10,014 bases of DNA. It comes from Halieaceae bacterium. Its GTDB lineage: Bacteria > Pseudomonadota > Gammaproteobacteria > Pseudomonadales > Halieaceae. The stretch is from NCBI GenBank assembly GCA_018666055.1, contig JABJAS010000362.1, positions 1 through 10,014 of the forward strand, given 5' to 3'. Below, piece by piece: positions 1-10,014 of this stretch. Position 1 is the stretch's first letter. Every line of letters begins with the position of its first letter. Below the pieces are notes generated by a model. It was given only the letters and a program-made list of their open reading frames with translations. It searched no databases and was not told the origin of the DNA. The position numbers and the translations under genes were made by a program.

Positions 1-156
1 AAATATAATGGGGGATGAAGACCAGCCCAGCCACTCTGGAATGCCCGCATTGGCAACCACCACACCAAACACGAACGCGAAGGGAATCGCGGGAATAAAC
101 AGCGGCAGGGCGCCCAAGGCGCCGCTGATCACGGGGGATGATCGCTCAGTGCTCAT
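1..156 (-). CDS. AzlC-family branched-chain amino acid exporter subunit, N-terminal fragment
   Basis: The ATG at 156 opens a frame of exactly 52 codons that runs off the left edge without a stop. The visible part has a short hydrophilic start, then hydrophobic sequence around 'ALPLFIPAIPFAFVFGVVVA' (residues 16-35), a Gly-Ile-Pro turn and 'SSSPIIF' at the edge. This matches the start of AzlC/YgaZ proteins: a Pro-containing first helix ending in PFAFxFG, then the Ser-rich stretch before the AGASQ motif, which would lie just outside the window. In the family, the large subunit AzlC (YgaZ) pairs with small AzlD (YgaH) to export branched-chain amino acids across the inner membrane; azlD is often the next gene, here beyond the left edge. 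No strong ribosome binding site is seen upstream. The gene is divergent from the DUF418 gene at 708. The family call is fairly secure from the motif, but the substrate is inferred. Confidence 0.72.
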   Translation of the reverse strand, partial: MSTERSSPVISGALGALPLFIPAIPFAFVFGVVVANAGIPEWLGWSSSPIIF

Positions 157-267
157 GGTGTCAGACCGGCAACATGCAGTGATAGCAGGCTGGGTGTTAA
201 TAGGGGAGGCAAAGAGTGCGTCATGGGTTTCCTATCTGGGCGAACCGTCGTAAATAGTGAGGTCGTC

Positions 268-324
268 TTATGACGGCACAGACGGGGTAAGCGCCAGAAT
301 AGAGCGATGCAGCGGATGACGCAT
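268..324 (-). other. Possible 18-codon leader peptide or truncated gene start
   Basis: An ATG at 324 is preceded by a good Shine-Dalgarno sequence, AGGAAGG at 338-332, with a 7-base spacer. The frame encodes MRHPLHRSILALTPSVPS and then stops. A basic start followed by a short hydrophobic run resembles the first residues of a secreted or outer-membrane protein. It may therefore be the surviving 5' end of a lost gene. A leader peptide upstream of the AzlC-like gene, whose start is 111 bases downstream on the same strand, is also possible. It is too short to judge by coding statistics; the ribosome binding site is the main support. Confidence 0.25.
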
Positions 325-353
325 GATAATACCTTCCTACAGAGTTGGATGTT

Positions 354-370
354 GGCCGTGAGGTACGGCC
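354..370. repeat. Small perfect inverted repeat (hairpin)
   Basis: GGCCGT (354-359) and ACGGCC (365-370) form a perfect 6-bp stem with a 5-base loop. It sits about 15 bases upstream of the Shine-Dalgarno of the 18-codon ORF on the minus strand. No T-run follows on either strand, so it is not a typical intrinsic terminator. It could be a leader RNA hairpin, a protein-binding site or chance. Confidence 0.3.
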
Positions 371-707
371 CTGTTTGCTTGAAGTAGAGCAGCATAGGGG
401 CAGCGCCCACGCGGTATTCGAACACGATCATCATAGTGCAAACAAGCCCAGCACGATGGGCGGTTGATTAAGTTGCTCCGCCGCTGGCACGGCTTGTGAA
501 ACCAACGCCGAGATACCATGATGCAACGACGAGTGGCGGCTCGATCAAGTGGTCGGCCACTGCCTGGCTGTCCCGGCTTCTTGCGCTGCCACATAGTTCG
601 GCTGGATGGCGTTGGAGGGTAAAGTGATTGAGCACAGGCCAAACAGTGGGGTTGTTAAGAGGATGGGAAATAATGTGCGGGTCTGAGCGAAAAGTGCGTG
701 ACTTACG

Positions 708-1886
708 GTGGTAACGACTGCCAACGAGCGGATCGCCTTTTTTGATGTGCTCAGGGGTGTCGCGCTATTTGGCATCTTAATCGTCAACGTATTCAGTTTC
801 GGCGCTGACGCTACCGTGTGGACAGACCCCCTGAACCGAACTTTCTGGGCGCTCAAGCACATTCTTTTTGAGTCCAAGTTCTGGGCACTCTACAGTTTAT
901 TATTCGGCATGGGCTTTTACTTACAGAGCCTGTCCCCCGGTTATACGCTGGGGCGCGCCGTTCGAAGACTGCTGGTTCTGATGGCTTTGGGCTGCCTGCA
1001 TGGTCTGTTGTTTGAGGGCGATATCCTCATGTTGTATGCGGAACTTGGCCTACTGTTATTGGTGCTCAATCGCCTTCCCAATCATTGGCTTGTGTGTGTG
1101 GGTGTTGTGCTCAGTCTCAGTTTTCCTTTGGGGCATTTATTAGGGGGTGATCGTGGCGACGAATGGCCGCCAGAGGACAGAGACGAGGCCATTGAATGGC
1201 TTGAAAACGACCTGGCGCACTCACCGTTATCAATCGGTGATTTTGCCGACGTGCTCACTTACCATCGCGAGAACATCCCAGAGTTGTTTTGGGCCGACTG
1301 GCAATATCCCGATTCAGGATTGCTGGTACTGTCCTTCTTTTTAGGCGGCGTTGTTTTCATGCGCGTTGGGTGGCCTCGACTGCAATCGCTGTCGATGTCA
1401 TCTTGCTGTCGCGTGGCGGCGAGTTGTTGGCTGGCGGGCTTTTTATTAATGGGAGTTGAGCGCTACTTAGCGGCAACGATGGGCTACCAGGTGTTTGGCA
1501 AATCAACTGCGTCAGCGCTCGGTGTGCTGGTCGGAGATGTGGTCTATCTGTGCGCCACGATATCCTTAACGGGTGCTTGGTTTATCAGTGTCTGGTGCTG
1601 GACCCGAAGCGATCGCTTTATCGCCCTTCGTACGCGTGTTGCCAGCGCAGGACGCGTGAGTCTATCGGCATACCTCAGCCAGACCCTTGTTTTCACGACG
1701 GTATTTTATGGCTACGGCCTCGGCAAAGCTTTCCAATGGGGGCCCTTCGCGGTGTGCTGCTTTGCGGTAATGGTTTACCTCACGCAGTTGGTGGTCTGCC
1801 ACTGGTGGTGTCAGCGATTCCGCCTCGGACCAATGGAGTGGCTATGGCGCTCTCTCACCAATCTTCGCTGGGAGTCGATTCGGTAG
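708..1886 (+). CDS. DUF418 domain-containing multi-pass inner-membrane protein
   Basis: This 392-residue protein has the usual length and layout of DUF418 (YeiB-like) proteins. Residues 11-31 carry the typical opening 'FFDVLRGVALFGILIVNVFS'; 'LYSLLFGMGFYLQ' lies at 61-73. An Arg-rich connector with 'LLVLMALGCLHGLLF' follows at 88-102. The C-terminal DUF418 region (about 307-384) has 'AGRVSLSAYLSQTLVF' and ends with 'RFRLGPMEWLWRSLT', the family hallmark GPxEWLWR. About eight to ten hydrophobic segments alternate with a hydrophilic loop at 147-200 rich in Asp, Glu and Trp. The biochemical role of the family is not established; transport or acyl transfer has been proposed because of its likeness to membrane acyltransferases. 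The start is GTG 708, because a TGA stop lies in frame just upstream at 699-701 and the family motif begins eight codons later. No clear ribosome binding site is seen. The gene is convergent with the synthetase gene and appears monocistronic. Confidence 0.9.
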   Translation: MVTTANERIAFFDVLRGVALFGILIVNVFSFGADATVWTDPLNRTFWALKHILFESKFWALYSLLFGMGFYLQSLSPGYTLGRAVRRLLVLMALGCLHGLLFEGDILMLYAELGLLLLVLNRLPNHWLVCVGVVLSLSFPLGHLLGGDRGDEWPPEDRDEAIEWLENDLAHSPLSIGDFADVLTYHRENIPELFWADWQYPDSGLLVLSFFLGGVVFMRVGWPRLQSLSMSSCCRVAASCWLAGFLLMGVERYLAATMGYQVFGKSTASALGVLVGDVVYLCATISLTGAWFISVWCWTRSDRFIALRTRVASAGRVSLSAYLSQTLVFTTVFYGYGLGKAFQWGPFAVCCFAVMVYLTQLVVCHWWCQRFRLGPMEWLWRSLTNLRWESIR

Positions 1887-1941: not shown

Positions 1942-1975
1942 CTAAGACAATTCACTGAAAAGGCGCCAGTCTTAG
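1942..1975. repeat. Interrupted inverted repeat at a convergent gene junction
   Basis: CTAAGAC (1942-1948) pairs with GTCTTAG (1969-1975) across a 20-base loop that contains the palindrome GGCGCC (1962-1967). The right arm overlaps the TAA stop of the minus-strand synthetase gene. The junction with the DUF418 gene (stop at 1886) lies just left. No T-run follows on either strand, so a terminator role for the two convergent genes is only a guess. A 10-bp palindrome, ACCTGCAGGT, is nearby at 1910-1919. Confidence 0.25.
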
Positions 1976-4900
1976 TGTGACAGGGGCTCGGGGTTGACGG
2001 GTTGAGTCGGGCTGCCTGTGTGCAGTCCGGGCGGGAGCTGCATCGCCTTTAGGATCAATGACTGCGGAGACACCGTTACATTGTCTGCCAGCGTGGCGCC
2101 TCCCATCAGCATTGAGCCATGGTTGATCACGGTGTTGTTACCAATCTTAGTTCGCGTCACGTTCAGTATGCGATGCTCAAAGCTGTGGAGCTGCATTTGC
2201 CCATTTATCACGCAGTCATCACCAATGTCCACGGCGTGCCAGTCAGAGAGCTGGATGGGTAGCCCGATCAGGCTTCGTTGGCCGATTCGACAGCCAAACC
2301 GCCGCAACAAGGGGTTAGCCAGAGCGGTTCCTGCGATGGTACTCATAAAGCTCGACATGAGCCTAAAAAAGCAATCTTGTGCGAGAAAATACGCAAAGTG
2401 GCGCACCGACCAAAAAGGCGCACTGTTTTTTCCTCCCCAGGAATTGCCCACGAGCAGATACTTAATGAGCAGTGCGAGGAGCGGCAAGCTAATCGGGAAC
2501 AGGATGCTGGTGATCAGTGCCGCCCCAATATTGCTGAAACCCAGGGCATTGAGGGATACCAGCAGCGTGGTGGCGAGAAAGACGGTGATACTGGGTACAA
2601 CACCAACCGAGGCAAAATCATTCAACACAAAACGCATCATGAAGACCCACCAGGATGGCTTAGGGTGAACAGGTTGTGCCGCCTGCAGCGCCGCGCCAAG
2701 GGATAATGCTGGATTTCCTGCGAGAACCCGCGGCAGGTCTGGACGATCTGTGTACTGTTCGCGGTAGTCGTGGGGGCCAATTGGCGTCGACACTCCTAGC
2801 AGCAAATTGCCGGGCAACGCGCCAGGTTCAATCATGGCGTTATTACTGGCGAAGAAACCCGCGGGTAAACGCAATGGCTTCACTAAAAGAAATGCGCCGT
2901 GTTCATCTAACACGTTGCAGTAGCACCCTTGAGCGATAAAAATATTGGCATCGGCGTCGAGTTGTTCGGGTAATACATTCACCAGCGCGTCGCATTCTGA
3001 GGCTCCGACTCGAGAGAATTTCACGCCGGCCAGTGCTCGCAGATACTGCCCCGTCAGACTCCAACCCCACATTTGCTGAATTTGATTCATTTTGGTTTGT
3101 CGATATCGGGCCAGTGTGCCCGTGAGGCTGAAGGCGCTAATCCATCCCGGCGGAGTAGGCGTTAGCCGAAGAAAGACGCAAAGCAGAAGCGAACTAGACA
3201 ACACGCCGATCCAGATGCCGGCAATGCCAGCGCCCCCTATTTTGAGAATGTCACCGAAGGTGAGCACGGCATCGTCCGCACTGAGCGTATTGAGCGCGTC
3301 TAGGCCGAGAAAAAAAGACGCGATGAGCGCGATAAACGCGCCGGGGATTACCACCAATGACAGTTCGAGTGCCAGCTGCAGCAGGACATTGCGCACGTCG
3401 ATGGCGGCCATGATGAGCCGGCTGCGCTGCGGCTGATTGGGCGTTTTCACTTGATGAAACGTGCCCACCACGGTGCCTGGAACACCACTGACTTGTGAAT
3501 AGGCGTCGCACGCGCTTTGTAGCGAAGACAGGGGCGTTAACCACGAACCCTCTCCAAGAGTGCCGCCCGCGGATACCATGGCTCGACTCCCCACTCGAGC
3601 GCGGGGGCCAATGTGTATGGGTTTTAGCGTAAAGACGGAAGATGCCCATTCGATCGTGCTGATTTGTGCGCCTGCCTGAATCACCGCGCCTTCCCCAATC
3701 GTCATCAGAGAGAGCGGGCCATACCATTCGGTGCTTTGCGCAATGAAGGTGCCCGGGTGAATGTGCGCGCCAAGACGACGTAAAGCCCAATTAAAAAGGT
3801 TCGGACTTCTCAGGCCATTCACCAGTGGCCTCAAGACAAAGCCCGCTTGTTGTTCCATCCACCAGACCTGTAGGTGATGACTGGAATATTTTTGATAGCG
3901 TCCGGGCTCCAATGTGGCTTCTATCCCCATTCCACGTTGCATCAAACGGAGGAGAACGACCCAGCTCAAATTCACGAAGGGCACAATCATGTAGAGGCAG
4001 TAACTAATAATGGTGGCGCCTAAAAAGCCCAGTACATCGCCCGCAAGCAGCAGGACCTCTGGATCAATAATCGCCAGTCCCAGTCCTGCAACGAGCACCA
4101 GCGGAACGCGCAGTAAAATGGAGGCACTCGCCTGTAAGGCACTGAAAGTGCGAAATGAGTACATCCTGCTCTCTACATCAGTGTCGTCCAAAGTCGATGG
4201 GTTGGGATGACTGCTAGCGGATTCTGCTGCCGGTTGAATCGTGCAATGGAGTGCCGCGATGTCTGCGGCGCAGCGATATTCGCTCAGCAGAGCTCGGACG
4301 GTCACGGGGTAGCCGGCCGCCTGCAAAGTTTGCGTGAGCTGCGCAATGGCAATCGAATGAGCACCCCACTCAACAAAGTCGTCGTGCCAACCAAGTTCGC
4401 TTCCCAATTGTGCCCGGCACAGCGCCAGCACGCCGACGTCCAGCGATTCGTCCACGGCGTCATCGTGTTGCGGGCTAAGTACCGGTCTCTGGTTGGATGT
4501 ACTGGCAAGCGCGGTAACTTTCGGTAACGCGCGCCGATCGATCTTGCCCGACGTGGCGAGGAGATCGAATTGGTCGATCAGGAACACCCGGCTGGGTACG
4601 GCATAGGGAGGGAATTTTTGTCCCACGAGGGTCTGCGCCTCAGCCAGCAGTGGTTGCTCAAGTAGCTGCACATTCGAGTTTGTGTGGGTTTGAGGCCATA
4701 GCGATGGCGCGCGAATAAAGGCGATCAGCTCGTTGTTTTGACAATCGAGTACCGCAGTTTCGAACTCGGTAAAGTGATCTTGCAGCAGCGATTCAATCGG
4801 CTGCGCTTCGACGCGAAATCCCCGAACCTTGAGCTGTGCATCGAGACGACCGTGAAAATGAACTCTCAGTGTTATGGGATCAACATGGCATCGATCACCC

Positions 4901-6255
4901 GATCGATACAGGCGACCGAATTGGGTGTGGGTGAAAAACTGTGCTGCGGTCGCGTCCGGTCGGTTACGGTAGCCCTGTGCCAGCTGACAGCCGCCAATGC
5001 AGAGCTCGCCTTCTGTGCCATGGGTCATCAGTTCCAATGTGGCGGGATCCAGAATGAAGTAGCTTACCCCTGCAAAAGGACTGCCAATCGTGACCGGTTC
5101 GTTGGGCCGTAACAGTTGCCGACTGGTGTCCGTACTGACCTCGGTGGGACCATAAGTATTGATGATCTGTCGGCGCGCCCGTGACCAGGGCTCAACCAGT
5201 GAGGCGGGAAAGGCCTCTCCTGCGGGCACGATATAGCGACAAATAGGATAGGGCAGGTCGATTTCAGGATTGGCGGTTAAAGTGGAGAGCAGCACGGGTG
5301 GGCAAAACAGCGCGGTTACAGAGTGGTCCCTTAAAATGGGGAGTAGCTCCGGACCAGAGCGTAAAGCCGCTTTTGTGAGTAAGACGACTTCACAACCAGC
5401 GACCCAGGCGCTATATAGTTCAGAAATGCTGCCGTCATAACCGAGTGAAGAAGTGAGCGAGCTCGCGTCACTCCCGGGTACAAAATCGTAATAGGTCGCA
5501 TAAGATTGCACGAGATTGATGTATCCCGCATGAGCGCATTCAACCCCCTTGGGTGTGCCAGTGGTGCCGCTGGTATAAAAGAGAGCGGCGATTCGCTGAG
5601 AGGGTGAATCCTCATAAGCGCTGGGGTGAGATGACGATTCGGCTTGAGAAGACGGCATAGCCTGTGGCGCGATAGCGTGTTTATGGGCGATTTTTAGTGA
5701 TTCGAGAGAGCGTATCGTCATGCCCGTCGCGGTAAGAGGGGCGTCAGTGAGAAATGTCAGTTCCGCTTCAGTGATCAACACCGTGGGCGCTGCATCCGCC
5801 AGGATCTGTTGGTAAAGGTGGCTGGGTGACTCCGGGTCAATAAAGACTTGCGTCGCTCCGGCTTTCAGAATTGCAAGGTGCAGTGCGACGATATCGGCAG
5901 AGTCTTGCCGCAAGTGCACCGCCACGACCTCATCGTTTCCAATCAGGTGCTGACGGAGATGGCCCGCGAAGTGGTTGGCTCTGGCGTCGAGCTCGGAGTA
6001 GCTGAGAGACTCCCCCGATTCGGGAACGGTTAGCGCAATCAGATCAGGGAACCGTGCCGCTGAGCGTTCAAAAATTTCGTGTAGCCAACGCGCACCCATT
6101 TGATGGTGATGAGATCCCCAGATGTCTCTCGGTGCAGGCTGACTGAGTACGGTTTTGGTCGGTAAGGGCTCAGCGCTTTCCGCCGCGATAGTGCAGTAGC
6201 GTAACCAGGCAGCGGTCAGTAGTAGGAGGAGAAGCGTTATCCATAGGAGTGTCAT
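1972..6255 (-). CDS. Pls/PosA-type membrane-bound single-module nonribosomal peptide synthetase
   Basis: A 1427-residue protein. Residues 3-18 form a hydrophobic N-terminal anchor. Residues 55-580 are an AMP-binding adenylation domain: A3 'FYTSGTTGTPKG' (226-237), A4 'GYDGS' (272-276), A5 'NTYGPTE' (366-372), A7 'YRSGD' (450-454), A8 'VRGFRVE' (477-483) and A10 'SGKID' with catalytic Lys571. A carrier domain follows (about 600-670); its phosphopantetheine Ser634 lies in 'GAHS', where most carriers have GGHS. The C-terminal half has three helix pairs (about 710-770, 955-1031, 1205-1270) separating three soluble domains. Left-handed beta-helix hexapeptide patterns of acyltransferases appear near 830-900 and 1319-1400. 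There is no condensation or thioesterase domain. This is the architecture of epsilon-poly-lysine synthetase Pls, in which the tandem C-terminal domains join monomers. The product here is unknown, and an extra N-terminal anchor is added. It lies 33 bp downstream of the amidinotransferase gene and is probably cotranscribed. No strong ribosome binding site is seen; Met53 is an alternative start that would drop the anchor. Confidence 0.9.
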   Translation of the reverse strand: MTLLWITLLLLLLTAAWLRYCTIAAESAEPLPTKTVLSQPAPRDIWGSHHHQMGARWLHEIFERSAARFPDLIALTVPESGESLSYSELDARANHFAGHLRQHLIGNDEVVAVHLRQDSADIVALHLAILKAGATQVFIDPESPSHLYQQILADAAPTVLITEAELTFLTDAPLTATGMTIRSLESLKIAHKHAIAPQAMPSSQAESSSHPSAYEDSPSQRIAALFYTSGTTGTPKGVECAHAGYINLVQSYATYYDFVPGSDASSLTSSLGYDGSISELYSAWVAGCEVVLLTKAALRSGPELLPILRDHSVTALFCPPVLLSTLTANPEIDLPYPICRYIVPAGEAFPASLVEPWSRARRQIINTYGPTEVSTDTSRQLLRPNEPVTIGSPFAGVSYFILDPATLELMTHGTEGELCIGGCQLAQGYRNRPDATAAQFFTHTQFGRLYRSGDRCHVDPITLRVHFHGRLDAQLKVRGFRVEAQPIESLLQDHFTEFETAVLDCQNNELIAFIRAPSLWPQTHTNSNVQLLEQPLLAEAQTLVGQKFPPYAVPSRVFLIDQFDLLATSGKIDRRALPKVTALASTSNQRPVLSPQHDDAVDESLDVGVLALCRAQLGSELGWHDDFVEWGAHSIAIAQLTQTLQAAGYPVTVRALLSEYRCAADIAALHCTIQPAAESASSHPNPSTLDDTDVESRMYSFRTFSALQASASILLRVPLVLVAGLGLAIIDPEVLLLAGDVLGFLGATIISYCLYMIVPFVNLSWVVLLRLMQRGMGIEATLEPGRYQKYSSHHLQVWWMEQQAGFVLRPLVNGLRSPNLFNWALRRLGAHIHPGTFIAQSTEWYGPLSLMTIGEGAVIQAGAQISTIEWASSVFTLKPIHIGPRARVGSRAMVSAGGTLGEGSWLTPLSSLQSACDAYSQVSGVPGTVVGTFHQVKTPNQPQRSRLIMAAIDVRNVLLQLALELSLVVIPGAFIALIASFFLGLDALNTLSADDAVLTFGDILKIGGAGIAGIWIGVLSSSLLLCVFLRLTPTPPGWISAFSLTGTLARYRQTKMNQIQQMWGWSLTGQYLRALAGVKFSRVGASECDALVNVLPEQLDADANIFIAQGCYCNVLDEHGAFLLVKPLRLPAGFFASNNAMIEPGALPGNLLLGVSTPIGPHDYREQYTDRPDLPRVLAGNPALSLGAALQAAQPVHPKPSWWVFMMRFVLNDFASVGVVPSITVFLATTLLVSLNALGFSNIGAALITSILFPISLPLLALLIKYLLVGNSWGGKNSAPFWSVRHFAYFLAQDCFFRLMSSFMSTIAGTALANPLLRRFGCRIGQRSLIGLPIQLSDWHAVDIGDDCVINGQMQLHSFEHRILNVTRTKIGNNTVINHGSMLMGGATLADNVTVSPQSLILKAMQLPPGLHTGSPTQPVNPEPLSH

Positions 6256-6288
6256 AAGTCTGGGGAGTGCGCGAACAACCTGCGCAGC

Positions 6289-7338
6289 TTAGTCGAAATA
6301 CGACTCCATCTTACCGCGGCGGCGCGTGTCCAGGGTGACACAATGAAAGCCACCACCCATCATGCGAGAGTGCCTGAGCTTTAAGGGGATTACCTCCATT
6401 TGGTGGCTTTCTAATAATCTAATCAGCGCCGTTTGATCGCGGTCCACGACGACTGTCTCGGGGCCTAAGCTAAAAAGGTTCATGTCAATCCACTCGCTGC
6501 CGATCGCTTGCTCTAAATACTCGGTACTGTAGCGATCCTGATTTTCCATGGGGGGGCTGAAGAGTATCTCCCACTGTTTTAAAAATGGTGGGATGGTATC
6601 TGATGATAATCGAGCGGGATTGGCGAGTAACAGACCGGGCTTGAGCGCGACCAAGGTCGAGTCAATGTGGCTGCCATAGTAGACGTCTTTCATAAAGTGC
6701 ACGGTAAACTCGTTTCCTAAGACGCGTTGTAACCAGCGTCCTCCCAGTTCATTGCCCGTTGCACTCACGAGGTACAGCAAATCGCGACCAAATCGTAATA
6801 CATTGGCCGCATCAAAGGCGGGCTCGATATTGCGAGGCGTCGGTGCTGATACGTCGTACTCAAATAACCGGTCCTCGAGCATGGGCTTGGGGGCTGCGAA
6901 CCAATTCGCGCCCTCTTCGAGATACTCCATGAGCAAGCGACGGTAGGAGCCCGTTTCGAGAGATCGGCCCCTGATGACGTTGGGTGTTTCGATAACGGTA
7001 TCGCCAATAACGAGCAGTACGTCTCTGGGACAATAGTTGTAATACCCTTGGCACTCCCAATGGGGGGTCTTGATGACCCGATCATGCGGCCAGTCATCGG
7101 GCCTATTGACAGTGATCCCCCTTGCTTCGAGTGCTTGAATAAACACCTGCAAATCTTCTTCGGTTTCTTCAATAATTTGATCAGGAAAAACACCCTGGGG
7201 CAGCGCATCGAGCGCACGATCAGGGTATTCCGCTAGTCGAGTGCTCGGGTCGGCAAAGGGAAAACGGGCACCCAAAGGATTCCCCACAACGACCTCTTCT
7301 AGCGGATCCCACTCGTTGCAACTCCAGACTCTGGGCAT
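6289..7338 (-). CDS. AGAT-family amidinotransferase (arginine:amine amidinotransferase)
   Basis: This 349-residue enzyme resembles L-arginine:glycine amidinotransferase and its bacterial relatives (StrB1, CyrA, SxtG). These cytosolic enzymes move the amidino group of arginine, through a Cys-bound intermediate, to an acceptor amine and release ornithine. All three catalytic positions are visible: Asp176 in 'FDAANVLRFGRD', His224 in 'GSHIDST' and Cys333 in 'GGGFHCVTLDTRRRG'. Their spacing is close to that of human AGAT (Asp254, His303, Cys407). The opening 'NEWDPLEEVVVG' (8-19) and 'CPRD' (103-106) are also family motifs. Human AGAT has Met302 just before the His; here it is Ser223, and the position of Asn300 is Tyr221. 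The acceptor is therefore probably not glycine, though that is inference. The ATG at 7338 fits the family N-terminus; no strong ribosome binding site or promoter is seen. The gene heads an operon with the Pls-type synthetase, suggesting it supplies a guanidino building block, supplies ornithine, or modifies the product. Confidence 0.92.
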   Translation of the reverse strand: MPRVWSCNEWDPLEEVVVGNPLGARFPFADPSTRLAEYPDRALDALPQGVFPDQIIEETEEDLQVFIQALEARGITVNRPDDWPHDRVIKTPHWECQGYYNYCPRDVLLVIGDTVIETPNVIRGRSLETGSYRRLLMEYLEEGANWFAAPKPMLEDRLFEYDVSAPTPRNIEPAFDAANVLRFGRDLLYLVSATGNELGGRWLQRVLGNEFTVHFMKDVYYGSHIDSTLVALKPGLLLANPARLSSDTIPPFLKQWEILFSPPMENQDRYSTEYLEQAIGSEWIDMNLFSLGPETVVVDRDQTALIRLLESHQMEVIPLKLRHSRMMGGGFHCVTLDTRRRGKMESYFD

Positions 7339-7400: not shown

Positions 7401-7424
7401 AAAAAAGGCCACCTTTAGGTGGCC
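7401..7424 (-). terminator. Rho-independent terminator of the small secreted protein gene
   Basis: On the minus strand a perfect 7-bp stem, GGCCACC / GGTGGCC (7424-7418 with 7413-7407), closes a 4-base loop and is followed directly by six Ts (7406-7401). It begins 22 bases after the stop of the 126-residue protein gene. It should insulate the amidinotransferase operon from that gene. The plus strand lacks a T-run after the stem, so termination is one-directional. Confidence 0.9.
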
Positions 7425-7446
7425 CTGACAATACTAAGCACGGTGC

Positions 7447-7827
7447 TTAAATGTCGTCAGCTTCCCACAGGGCAGAGCCGTGACACGTCAGCGTTTCACG
7501 CTCCATTTGTGCGACGTCTGATCCAGGATAGGCATCCCACCATTCGCCGAAGTCCCCAAAGGAACCCCAAGACACAACATACTGTACGTCGGTACCGTCA
7601 CCGTCTGCACCCACTGCTACGGGAAACAGGACGTGAACGTCCATATCACCGCCGCCGGGCAGCTTAGACGCCGCTTTTTTCCAGTTGCCCGCCTGCTCAA
7701 TCACGGACTCTTCTGAGACGTCACCGTTAATATTGCATTTCCACATTTGGACTGGATCACCCGCAGAGGCGAATGGGGACAACAACATCAAAGCGCTAAC
7801 TGCCGATACAAAACCTTTCGTTTTCAT
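7447..7827 (-). CDS. Small secreted acidic protein of unknown function
   Basis: A 126-residue protein with a clear Sec signal peptide: basic 'MKTK', a hydrophobic core at 6-17 and an Ala-Ser-Ala cleavage site at 20-22. The mature protein of about 104 residues is acidic and Trp-rich. It has exactly two cysteines, Cys31 in 'MWKCNINGD' and Cys115 in 'TLTCHGSALW', which could form a disulfide linking its two ends in the periplasm. The middle, 'DVHVLFPVAVG' followed by 'QYVVSWGSFGDFGEWWDAY', suggests alternating beta strands. I do not recognise the family and assign no function. The start at 7827 is well supported by GGGAG at 7838-7834, six bases upstream. A strong terminator follows, so it is probably transcribed alone. 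It lies between two operons on the same strand with no evident functional tie to either. Confidence 0.85.
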   Translation of the reverse strand: MKTKGFVSAVSALMLLSPFASAGDPVQMWKCNINGDVSEESVIEQAGNWKKAASKLPGGGDMDVHVLFPVAVGADGDGTDVQYVVSWGSFGDFGEWWDAYPGSDVAQMERETLTCHGSALWEADDI

Positions 7828-7968: not shown

Positions 7969-9480
7969 CTAGGCTGCAGCCTGTCCCGAAGCGAGCCGCT
8001 GGCCTAACAAGCGCCCAAAGGTAATCGCGGGCGTCACCAGCATGCCATTGGTATAAGCCGCCCCAGACGTGGCGCCTGCGCCAATCACTTCGCCAATGGC
8101 ATATAAATTTGGGATCGGTCGTGCTTCGCGATCGAGCACCCGCAAACTGCCATCGATGCTCAGACCCGCAAAGGAGACCAAGGTCCAGCCTTGCATGGCA
8201 ATGCTGTAGAACGGCGGCTTAACTAGGGGTGAGGGTCGGAATACACGGCCATAAGCGTCTGTGCCGCCAATGGCGATGCTGTGATTGTAATCATTGACCG
8301 TTGCGGCGACCGTGGAGGGATTCAGGCCCGCTCGAAAGGCGAGTTCATTTAACGACATGGCACTGTGGAACATGGGGTTACTTTGATGCTCTTTAGCGAT
8401 TCTCTCCCGGGTCCAGTCGGGAATAATGGGGGGCGATTTTTCAAGCATGTCAGCGTCGAAAATAGCCCAGTGCCGATGACCCGGTTGCCGATAGATACCT
8501 CGCTCAATCTGATGCACGCTAGGGTGATCTTCCCTCACAAAACGCTCGCCTCGGGCGTTGACGACGATTTCCCAAGGGGATCGAGCCGCAGGGTTTAAGG
8601 GTGCATAAGCAAACATCTGGCAAGGGTAGCGATAGGCATCTGGAATGAGCCCCGGTAAGCAGGCGTACTTTTCGGCGCCGACGATCGCCGCGCCGGCAGA
8701 CATTCCTAACAGCAGGCCACTGCCCAGTGATGTTGGGTAGGCCGTCTGCGCATACAGCGGCACGCCATGTAGCTCCTCGAACAATCTTGGATTGGCAGCG
8801 CAGCCACCCGTGGCAACGACGACATGGGACGCTTTTACGTCTTGACGGCCAAGCGGTCCATCTACCGTAACGCCTGTGATGGCGCCGGAGGGTTGCTGCA
8901 GCAGGGCCGTTGCCGACGTGCCCGTGAGCAGGGTGACCTGCTGGTTGCTAATGGCCTGATTGAGGCTCGGCAGCAGTGCGTCAAGAATTGACAGCCCGCT
9001 TTTGGTCCCTTGTTGATATCGACGCGTCGTAAAATGATCGTGGCCGATCCCGGTGACCGGATGTCCGTCCATGACTTCGAAGCCTTGTTGGGCCAGCCAG
9101 TTGATGGTAGTTCCCGCATGATCGACGGTTAAGCGGGTGAGTGCGGGGTCCGCGGTAGCGCCATTGATGCGCATGCAATCGGCAAAATGCGCATCAGGGC
9201 TGTCCTCGATACCGAGCCGTTGCTGAAAAACCGTACCGGAACCTGCAATCTGGCCAGTAGACCAAAACAACGTGCCGCCCAATGAGGGGCTCTTTTCAAC
9301 CAGCAGCACGCGGGCTCCACCGAGTGCGGCAAAGAGCGCGCAGGGGATCCCTGCGGTACCGCCACCAATAACGATGACATCGTAGTGATCGGCTGGCTTG
9401 GCATGACCGGTGGCGGCGCCCCACAGCGGGATGGAAGCGGCCGCGAGCAGTGTGTCTCGTCTACTCAGTTTCAGGCTCAC
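7969..9480 (-). CDS. Tat-exported FAD-dependent oxidoreductase (FAD_binding_2 / KstD-like)
   Basis: From GTG 9480 this encodes 503 residues. The N-terminus carries a twin-arginine signal, 'SRRDTLLAAA' (6-15), with likely cleavage after Ala27 (Gly-His-Ala), so export of the folded flavoprotein to the periplasm is expected. A Rossmann FAD motif follows: 'DVIVIGGGTAG' (34-44) ending in Glu62 of 'LLVEK', then 'SLGGT'. 'NARGERFVRED' lies in the central substrate-domain region. The C-terminal FAD motif is 'LYAIGEVIGAGATSGAAY'. This is the fumarate reductase flavoprotein / 3-ketosteroid dehydrogenase superfamily. The substrate cannot be read from sequence. No cytochrome domain is present, so it would need a separate electron acceptor. 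GTG 9480 is chosen because AAGGGAGG lies five bases upstream and the Tat motif follows at once. An ATG at 9594 is in frame but would overlap the dehydrogenase gene by 70 bases and bury the Tat signal. It follows the dehydrogenase gene by 44 bp, probably as an operon. Confidence 0.88.
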   Translation of the reverse strand: MSLKLSRRDTLLAAASIPLWGAATGHAKPADHYDVIVIGGGTAGIPCALFAALGGARVLLVEKSPSLGGTLFWSTGQIAGSGTVFQQRLGIEDSPDAHFADCMRINGATADPALTRLTVDHAGTTINWLAQQGFEVMDGHPVTGIGHDHFTTRRYQQGTKSGLSILDALLPSLNQAISNQQVTLLTGTSATALLQQPSGAITGVTVDGPLGRQDVKASHVVVATGGCAANPRLFEELHGVPLYAQTAYPTSLGSGLLLGMSAGAAIVGAEKYACLPGLIPDAYRYPCQMFAYAPLNPAARSPWEIVVNARGERFVREDHPSVHQIERGIYRQPGHRHWAIFDADMLEKSPPIIPDWTRERIAKEHQSNPMFHSAMSLNELAFRAGLNPSTVAATVNDYNHSIAIGGTDAYGRVFRPSPLVKPPFYSIAMQGWTLVSFAGLSIDGSLRVLDREARPIPNLYAIGEVIGAGATSGAAYTNGMLVTPAITFGRLLGQRLASGQAAA

Positions 9481-9485
9481 AGATC

Positions 9486-9493
9486 CCTCCCTT
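9486..9493 (-). promoter_or_regulatory. Ribosome binding site that fixes the GTG start of the flavoprotein
   Basis: AAGGGAGG on the minus strand lies five bases before GTG 9480. It is the strongest Shine-Dalgarno match near this reading frame and sits in the gap after the short-chain dehydrogenase stop. It supports GTG 9480 over the longer ATG 9594 frame. Confidence 0.8.
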
Positions 9494-9524
9494 AACCTTA
9501 ATGACAATTGGCAGTGCGTAGCGC

Positions 9525-10014
9525 TTAATCGGGTCGTGCCTTGATGCGTAGAAACCGTCTTGTCCAAACGGACTGAAAAATGGGATCGAGCCAACGATAC
9601 AGGCGACCCGACACGACGACAGGCTTTCCGTCTTCAACGCCGTTGATGCCATCGCAGACCACCACTTTGGCCTCGTACCACAGCCACTTAGCCATCTTGT
9701 TTTTCATATCCATGAGCCCAGCGGTCTCATGGAATTCGGTGTGGGTGAATCCAGGGCACAACGCCGACACGTTGACGCCCTGTCCGGCCACGCTCAAATG
9801 GAGCTCTTCAGACAGTGCAACAACGTAGGCTTTAGCGGGTCCATAGTTACATCCCCCAGAGCGCGGCACACGCGCTGCAACCGACGCAATGTTGATCACG
9901 CGGCCCTGTCCACGCTCTACCATTGACGGAATAAAAAGGTGACACATTTCGGCGACTGAGAGCATCATCAGCTGGTAAAAAGCGTATTGATCAGACCAAT
10001 CTCGGTCTTTGAGC
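9525..10014 (-). CDS. Short-chain dehydrogenase/reductase (SDR), C-terminal part
   Basis: The frame is open to the right edge; the N-terminal part with the NAD(P)-binding TGxxxGxG motif lies outside the window. The visible 162 residues contain the classical SDR catalytic set, numbered from the edge: Ser44 in 'GRVINIASVAA', Tyr57 and Lys61 in 'YGPAK', with the usual 13-residue Ser-Tyr spacing. 'CPGFTHTEFHE' follows, the PG motif after beta-6 with its T/E cofactor-loop region. The protein is thus an intact NAD(P)-dependent alcohol/ketone oxidoreductase as far as it can be seen. The C-terminus has an extra basic tail, 'RLYRWLDPIFQSVWTRRFLR', which is amphipathic and could touch a membrane. The substrate is unknown. 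It precedes the Tat flavoprotein gene by 44 bp on the same strand, suggesting coexpression. An internal ATG near 9968 is not the start, because the frame and homologous sequence continue upstream. Confidence 0.88.
   Translation of the reverse strand, partial: LKDRDWSDQYAFYQLMMLSVAEMCHLFIPSMVERGQGRVINIASVAARVPRSGGCNYGPAKAYVVALSEELHLSVAGQGVNVSALCPGFTHTEFHETAGLMDMKNKMAKWLWYEAKVVVCDGINGVEDGKPVVVSGRLYRWLDPIFQSVWTRRFLRIKARPD

Follow-up and report, generated by a model that had tools for sequence, protein, structure and literature searches.

The cationic homopolymers named in the cited part of a study of their synthetases are made from plain diamino acids (PMC10522769). One of the enzymes described for this purpose, the poly(L-diaminopropionic acid) synthetase of Streptomyces albulus PD-1, is laid out like the synthetase described here, A-PCP-membrane with three soluble domains in tandem at the C-terminus (PMC4668381). 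Its monomer, L-2,3-diaminopropionate (Dap), is made from serine and ornithine by NjxA and NjxB, cysteine-synthase-like and ornithine-cyclodeaminase-like enzymes as with SbnA and SbnB, and the genes for this supply do not lie near that of the synthetase (PMC4668381). The portion of that report used here mentions no amidinotransferase, unlike the operon that we describe. Epsilon-poly-L-lysine synthetase (Pls) and PosA have a terminal domain homologous to that of our synthetase, which differs from both in its N-terminal hydrophobic helix, its lack of the PosA-type Glu, its conserved amidinotransferase partner and its low family score. The amidinotransferase (AMT) is homologous to StrB1, HsvA, SxtG and AGAT and has the Asp-His-Cys triad in common with them; its family is set apart from these enzymes, and from AmtA and CyrA, by its acceptor flap and by its operon partners, SbnA/SbnB and a membrane synthetase. 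A search of the open-licence literature by title and abstract opening found no published description of the AMT-synthetase pair, or of the pair with Dap genes. If the operon links the synthesis of Dap and the transfer of an amidino group to a membrane synthetase, it would add a guanidinylated class to the cationic homopolymers.

The window, by which we mean the whole analysed stretch of 10,014 nucleotides from a Halieaceae bacterium, carries the AMT gene at 6289-7338 (349 aa ORF) and the synthetase gene at 1972-6255 (1427 aa ORF), both on the (-) strand and separated by 33 bp (6256-6288). The earlier note had described an AGAT-family enzyme with an intact triad 33 bp upstream of a synthetase on the same strand, and coordinates, gap and residues agree with this: the triad consists of D176 (in EPAFDAAN), H224 and C333 (in GGGFHC). 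All three residues are kept in 181/181 aligned AMT sequences, the window's own included. Over nearly its whole length the AMT matches the solved structures of StrB1 (1bwd, 369 bits), HsvA, SxtG and AGAT, the best match being StrB1, named inosamine-phosphate amidinotransferase. By this near full-length homology and the triad, the AMT is classed as an AGAT/StrB1-type amidinotransferase. Source records annotate one of its relatives as inosamine-phosphate amidinotransferase and many as N-dimethylarginine dimethylaminohydrolase, names that would mislead.

We observed a same-strand synthetase within 1.5 kb downstream of the AMT in 46 of the 57 AMT loci that have at least 1.5 kb of sequence downstream; in two of these 46 (L069 and L088) an S41 gene lies between them. 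The records are labelled Alpha-, Gamma- and Deltaproteobacteria, Acidobacteria, Planctomycetes and Verrucomicrobia, and the adjacency, which the earlier note had proposed to look for, extends over several classes and phyla and is not confined to close relatives. Five loci have an AMT of 64-68% identity and room for a synthetase but none there, and in three of them (L054, L066 and L073) the synthetase is on another contig. Among 58 related genomes, the two genes co-occur in 16 of the 17 that have either (AMT at least 68% identity, synthetase at least 43%), and in the 17th the synthetase runs off the contig end. AMT and synthetase distances correlate across 38 loci (r 0.87; 0/2000 permutations as high), a correlation that would also arise from shared descent alone. 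Together, these comparisons support the view that AMT and synthetase belong together. A sample of 397 further genomes, taken evenly across the phylum, yielded no AMT at E 1e-100, and the system is therefore patchy. Named, non-metagenome carriers are HTCC2148, HTCC2080 and Zhengella mangrovi, which we take to be in culture.

Both sbnA and sbnB, the 2,3-diaminopropionate synthase genes, lie near the AMT in 30/71 loci, one of which (L031) has a broken sbnB. Across several phyla, 19 loci in all have sbnB as the immediate upstream neighbour of the AMT, in the same orientation, and a PPTase gene is present in 24/71. We scored the Dap genes of two loci, L032 and L036, with the NCBIfam models TIGR03944 and TIGR03945: SbnB is over the cut-off in both, and SbnA is over its cut-off of 349.95 in L036 (372.2) and under it in L032 (280.2). 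The best solved match of SbnA is 5d87, named SbnA. That of SbnB is 4m54 (239.7 bits), listed as a putative ornithine cyclodeaminase, which we take to be S. aureus SbnB; ornithine cyclodeaminase 1u7h scores only 30.4. These scores weaken the idea, modelled on the use of ornithine by NjxB, that ornithine release is coupled to SbnB.

Within the fetched stretch, sbnA/sbnB are absent in 41/71 loci, some of them contig ends. The window has no trace of either gene: between the DUF418 gene and the next gene (157-707), where sbnB and sbnA stand in the relatives L028 and L078, tblastn gave no match to them at E up to 1. Neither the window's own genome (66% complete) nor a near relative (97% complete) has a match to SbnB or a SbnA above 40% identity, and in the genome of L035 the best SbnB score, 74.8 bits, stays under the cut-off. 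In the window's lineage, where these genes were not found, Dap must therefore be imported or made otherwise. The 41 loci speak against a Dap-guanidino pathway, as do L053 and L074, which have the AMT but in whose genomes no synthetase was found.

We infer all substrates and the product of the pathway that follows. The favoured reading, to which we give a probability of about 0.48, is that AMT and synthetase form the core of a small operon for a guanidine-bearing, Dap-derived product at the inner membrane. SbnA and SbnB would supply Dap, and the AMT would move the amidino group of arginine to its side-chain amine, giving L-2-amino-3-guanidinopropionate and ornithine. The A domain would load this guanidino amino acid, or less likely Dap itself, onto a carrier domain primed by the PPTase. 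The Pls-homologous membrane terminal domain would then couple it, probably to further units via alpha-peptide bonds, which we favour because guanidinylation leaves the side chain unable to form the isopeptide bond seen in known members. Finishing or export of the product may fall to a TraX or DUF418 membrane protein, joined in some lineages by an S41 peptidase. In general terms, arginine and Dap are probably the starting materials from which a gene set common to distantly related bacteria makes a guanidine-bearing compound with a membrane-bound peptide synthetase. The earlier note had offered a guanidinylated amino acid, homoarginine-like or shorter, as the monomer. The shorter kind fits best because sbnA/sbnB bring Dap into the operon, and lysine/homoarginine becomes less likely because the acceptor flap of the AMT, VYYGS (residues 219-223), differs from the DMHPM of AmtA; the flaps of AGAT and CyrA are DPNPM and DIFPS (PMC4887976). 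A point against the favoured reading is that AmtA, which is related to the AMT, does not accept L-Dap, according to the cited part of the same paper (PMC4887976).

The A-domain code of the window synthetase is DGSFVATTDK, and DGSF(V/I)ATTDK occurs in 162/165 synthetase sequences. Gene content, gene order and their conservation, the presence of the catalytic residues and this near-invariant code were all observed directly. Pocket position 3 is Ser in 164/164 readable sequences and Glu in 20/20 Streptomyces TIGR02353 proteins compared, and the predicted building-block pocket is thus unlike those of the compared relatives. The code is unchanged in the window's lineage, which lacks sbnA/sbnB, and this argues that the substrate there is the same. 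Known cationic homopolymer synthetases (CHPA) are recognised by a Glu that binds the side-chain amine; the quoted codes, among which that of the poly-Dap enzyme does not appear, all have Glu at position 3, and Glu221 is essential in PosA for ornithine (PMC10522769). With Ser in all 164 readable sequences, the synthetase is judged not to be a canonical Pls/PosA enzyme, and the earlier note's second model, in which the ornithine by-product is polymerised in the PosA manner, finds no support since the Glu is missing from the whole family. A Glu-type synthetase of Bdellovibrionales has modest activity with arginine, so a guanidino substrate does not demand the DGSF(V/I)ATTDK pocket (PMC10522769). 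Nor does the code, as read from sequence, discriminate between guanidino-Dap, Dap and other small polar amino acids. In a search of Streptomyces for an independent pocket code for Dap, 0/20 stretches had a sbnA/sbnB match, the 20 being chosen from 75 matches listed over the TIGR02353 cut-off.

Dap itself might be loaded and polymerised, the AMT later capping or decorating Dap units of the oligomer or amidinating only a side pool, but AGAT-family enzymes are known to act on small free amines, and we consider this course of events unlikely. It would accord with the Dap genes in 30 loci and with the Dap-polymerising S. albulus enzyme of like layout (PMC4668381). Ser in place of the Glu of the quoted homopolymer codes argues against it (PMC10522769).

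The synthetase is predicted to be a single-module A-T enzyme with a Pls-like membrane terminal domain. It matches AMP-binding (62-429, the single A domain), PP-binding (610-668) and hexapeptide models, and carries the carrier motif GAHSI from residue 631 and a QLHSFE motif from residue 1355. Hydropathy alone indicates a hydrophobic helix at the N-terminus and, further on, three hydrophobic stretches (~704-772, 952-1034 and 1209-1271) that surround three soluble parts. The 'Pls/PosA family' model TIGR02353 aligns over the whole extent of the terminal domain (67-687 of 695 positions, E 1.6e-35) at 122.7 bits for the whole protein and 125.0 for the C-terminal part, under the curated cut-off of 423.1. 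The 'Pls architecture' of the earlier note thus holds as distant homology; family membership does not follow, because the score is far under the cut-off, and on these matches we class the enzyme as a distant homologue of Pls outside the Pls/PosA family. Viral contigs searched with synthetase patterns gave no match.

Instead of making a polymer, the terminal domain may pass a single carrier-bound guanidino-aminoacyl group to an acceptor in the form of a lipid, a sugar or cell-wall material, the product being modified by TraX/DUF418. Its hexapeptide acyltransferase-like parts (WcaF-family matches in 29/29 members), the TraX or DUF418 membrane protein near the AMT in 38/71 loci and the spread over many bacterial groups are consistent with this. 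We nevertheless think a single transfer improbable: enzymes proven to polymerise have the same arrangement of three soluble parts in tandem, set between TM stretches (PMC4668381), TIGR02353 matches 29/29 members, though the window's lies far under the cut-off, and the C3 histidine lines up with its counterpart in all 8 aligned Streptomyces Pls-family proteins. Under the favoured reading of an operon for a guanidine-bearing, Dap-derived product, a speculative and somewhat doubtful candidate is an oligomer of 2-amino-3-guanidinopropionic acid assembled non-ribosomally at the membrane. This natural short-side-chain relative of oligo-arginine, joined through alpha-peptide bonds, would come from a subfamily of synthetases that has a distinct pocket and occurs in marine and soil bacteria of different phyla, some lineages having lost Dap synthesis and relying on neighbours for the monomer.

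Very doubtful is a scheme in which the AMT acceptor is not Dap (but glycine, an aminosugar or a polyamine, for example) and in which Dap and the guanidino compound serve as separate building blocks: StrB1 is the closest solved relative, the flap (aromatic + Ser) resembles that of the glycine enzyme CyrA (PMC4887976) and the pair is kept in lineages without sbnA/sbnB, but sbnB directly precedes the AMT in 19 loci of several phyla and only one A domain is present in the synthetase.

Convergent with the synthetase lies a gene for a DUF418 (YeiB-like) membrane protein (708-1886, (+) strand). DUF418 occurs near the AMT in 27/71 loci and is absent from all 11 loci with TraX; 33/71 have neither, some of these being short contigs. 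A single DUF418-TraX superfamily was rejected, as the profile comparison covered 24 columns at a probability of 0.8%, and we therefore claim that no locus has both, and not that the two are related. An Rfam scan of the window at gathering scores gave no match. On the promoter side of the pair, where the earlier note had placed a terminator, there is an intrinsic-terminator-like hairpin (7405-7426, (-) strand; a stem of 9 pairs with a T run after it). The terminator scan found 9 such sites versus 9.3 expected in shuffles, so this hairpin is supported by its strength alone. It separates the AMT from an upstream gene for a small protein, sp126 (7447-7827, (-) strand), with a signal-like N-terminus by eye. 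Pfam and NCBIfam searches with sp126 gave no match, and its profile found one solved structure at E 0.15, which is not significant. It lies near the AMT in 37/71 loci, and its cysteines C31 and C115 are invariant in 23 aligned members.

The earlier note described an amidinotransferase gene beside a Pls-type peptide synthetase gene, and we recovered both in the window, at 6289-7338(-) and 1972-6255(-), respectively. The amidinotransferase (AMT) matches solved structures over about its full length, with StrB1 (1bwd) at 369 bits, and also HsvA, SxtG and AGAT; D176, H224 and C333 are kept in it and in 181/181 aligned sequences. The synthetase shows AMP-binding, carrier and hexapeptide domain matches, and its hydrophobic regions comprise an N-terminal helix and three further stretches. 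The Pls/PosA terminal domain aligns almost end to end with the C-terminal half of the synthetase, although the score, 122.7 bits, is below the 423.1-bit cut-off. The adenylation (A) domain of the synthetase scores 137 bits against its solved Pls counterpart (7wew), to which it is no nearer than to ordinary synthetases such as tyrocidine synthase 1 (209 bits). The window is a single contig of an incomplete genome (65.7% complete) with an even GC content of 0.52-0.58, and its best-matching named loci are uncultured Luminiphilus and Halieaceae records. An FAD-dependent oxidoreductase (7969-9594(-); closest to flavocytochrome c among NCBIfam models, at a score under the cut-off) and a short-chain dehydrogenase truncated by the window end (9525-10013(-)) are probably outside the operon, since they adjoin the pair in the closest relatives only. 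At the other end, the start of a gene judged by eye to encode an AzlC-like permease (1-156(-)) precedes a DUF418 gene (708-1886(+)); the same gene lies beyond DUF418 in two other AMT loci, L020 and L031.

We scanned 84,980 species, one genome each, with exact peptide patterns from the window's AMT. This yielded 72 loci, 71 of which retained the AMT match on comparison, a lower bound because the patterns were exact. The pairing on which the earlier note built its pathway is conserved: a synthetase gene is found no more than 1.5 kb away, in the same orientation, in 46 of the 57 loci with at least 1.5 kb past the AMT gene, and in 54/71 when available room is ignored. An S41 peptidase gene sits between the two in L069 and L088. 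The 11 remaining loci are L053, L054, L066, L073 and L074 (AMT identity 64-68%), the divergent L075 (Streptomyces, 62%) and L077 (Hyalangium, 55%), and four from Patescibacteria-type records (35-39%). In L054, L066 and L073 the synthetase is on a different contig of the same genome, and the end of a synthetase is also present where L066 starts; a search of the L053 and L074 genomes turned up no synthetase. Among 58 related genomes, an AMT of at least 68% identity was present in 16 (two further genomes have matches at 36%), a synthetase of at least 43% in 17, and both in 16; in the 17th (G023) the synthetase is truncated by a contig end. Pairwise AMT and synthetase distances across 38 loci correlate (r 0.87, equalled by 0 of 2000 permutations), which shared descent alone could explain. 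Phylum labels were taken from the records, mostly metagenome bins and possibly misassigned; the records of HTCC2148, HTCC2080, Zhengella mangrovi and NaphS2 carry no bin label. The system is patchy, since among 398 genomes sampled evenly across the phylum only the window's own carries the AMT at E 1e-100.

Recurrent partners were found by clustering the open frames of the AMT loci and matching examples to families. The 2,3-diaminopropionate (Dap) synthases SbnA and SbnB occur together in 30/71 loci, and in 19 sbnB is immediately upstream of the AMT gene on the same strand. In the two loci tested, SbnB passed the curated threshold each time; SbnA did so once and fell short once. Among solved structures, SbnA scores best against 5d87, itself named SbnA, and SbnB against 4m54, tabulated as a putative ornithine cyclodeaminase, which we take to be S. 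aureus SbnB. Other partners are a small protein encoded at 7447-7827(-) in the window (37/71), a PPTase (24/71) and an S41 peptidase (12/71). DUF418 is found in 27 loci and TraX in 11, never together, and 33 have neither. Synthetases that run to ~1700 aa and end in a TraX-like part occur in L037, L047, L069 and L088, all from Acidobacteria-type records; Pfam, applied to L037 and L069, identified TraX fused to the synthetase C-terminus in both.

The simplest reading, each chemical step of which we infer from gene content and family, is that arginine and Dap would give a guanidino amino acid, which would be loaded by the synthetase and then coupled in the membrane. The closest published case is poly-Dap synthesis in Streptomyces albulus, where the Dap genes are not near the synthetase gene and, unlike in the AMT-synthetase pair, no amidinotransferase is described in the portion of the source cited (PMC4668381).

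The residues preceding the catalytic His are DPNPM in AGAT, DMHPM in AmtA and DIFPS in CyrA, and AmtA is described, in the sections cited, as accepting lysine and ornithine and refusing Dap and glycine (PMC4887976). This flap is VYYGS or VYFGS in 168/181 aligned AMT sequences, unlike that of AmtA, and therefore no lysine enzyme is predicted; nor does the flap prove a Dap enzyme. We located the ten A-domain specificity positions by motif and residue numbering, not from a structure; 162/165 sequences have DGSFVATTDK or DGSFIATTDK at these positions, the exceptions being NGSFVATTDK, DGSFVSTTDK and one cut short. In PosA, the side-chain amine is bound by the Glu at position 3, and mutating this residue left no activity; the other codes printed in the excerpts used likewise have Glu there, among them that of a Bdellovibrionales enzyme modestly active with arginine (PMC10522769). 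All 20 Streptomyces TIGR02353 (Pls/PosA family) proteins compared carry it, as DAESIGTVVK (16), the same with the last position unread (1) or DFECLSVVTK (3); one DAESIGTVVK protein scored 662 bits against the solved A domain of epsilon-poly-lysine synthase. The window's synthetase family, which lacks this Glu, thus retains the terminal domain but appears to read its substrate differently. The Asp near the code end could hold a positive charge.

In L028 and L078, sbnB and sbnA adjoin DUF418. The sbnB of L031 (16643-17162) is in two pieces with an internal stretch gone, and the sbnA next to it is intact, which may represent a stage in losing Dap synthesis. A search of window positions 157-707 for sbnA and sbnB gave no match to either, and genome G004 (97% complete; AMT 95% identical) gave no SbnB match and no SbnA above 40%. 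Lineages without these genes must get Dap another way or use a different acceptor; we favor the former because the pocket code is unchanged.

Among the distant relatives, the Streptomyces AMT (L075:8528-12608) is beside an aldehyde dehydrogenase and an ATP-grasp-type protein weakly similar to the dapdiamide synthase DdaF, perhaps a separate guanidino pathway. The Hyalangium AMT (L077:8622-11041) adjoins a PLP enzyme for which GntC (guanitoxin biosynthesis) is the top family match, with a score below cut-off. In Patescibacteria-type records, the distant AMT matches of L085 and L086 have DMHPM as their flap, as does the lysine enzyme AmtA.
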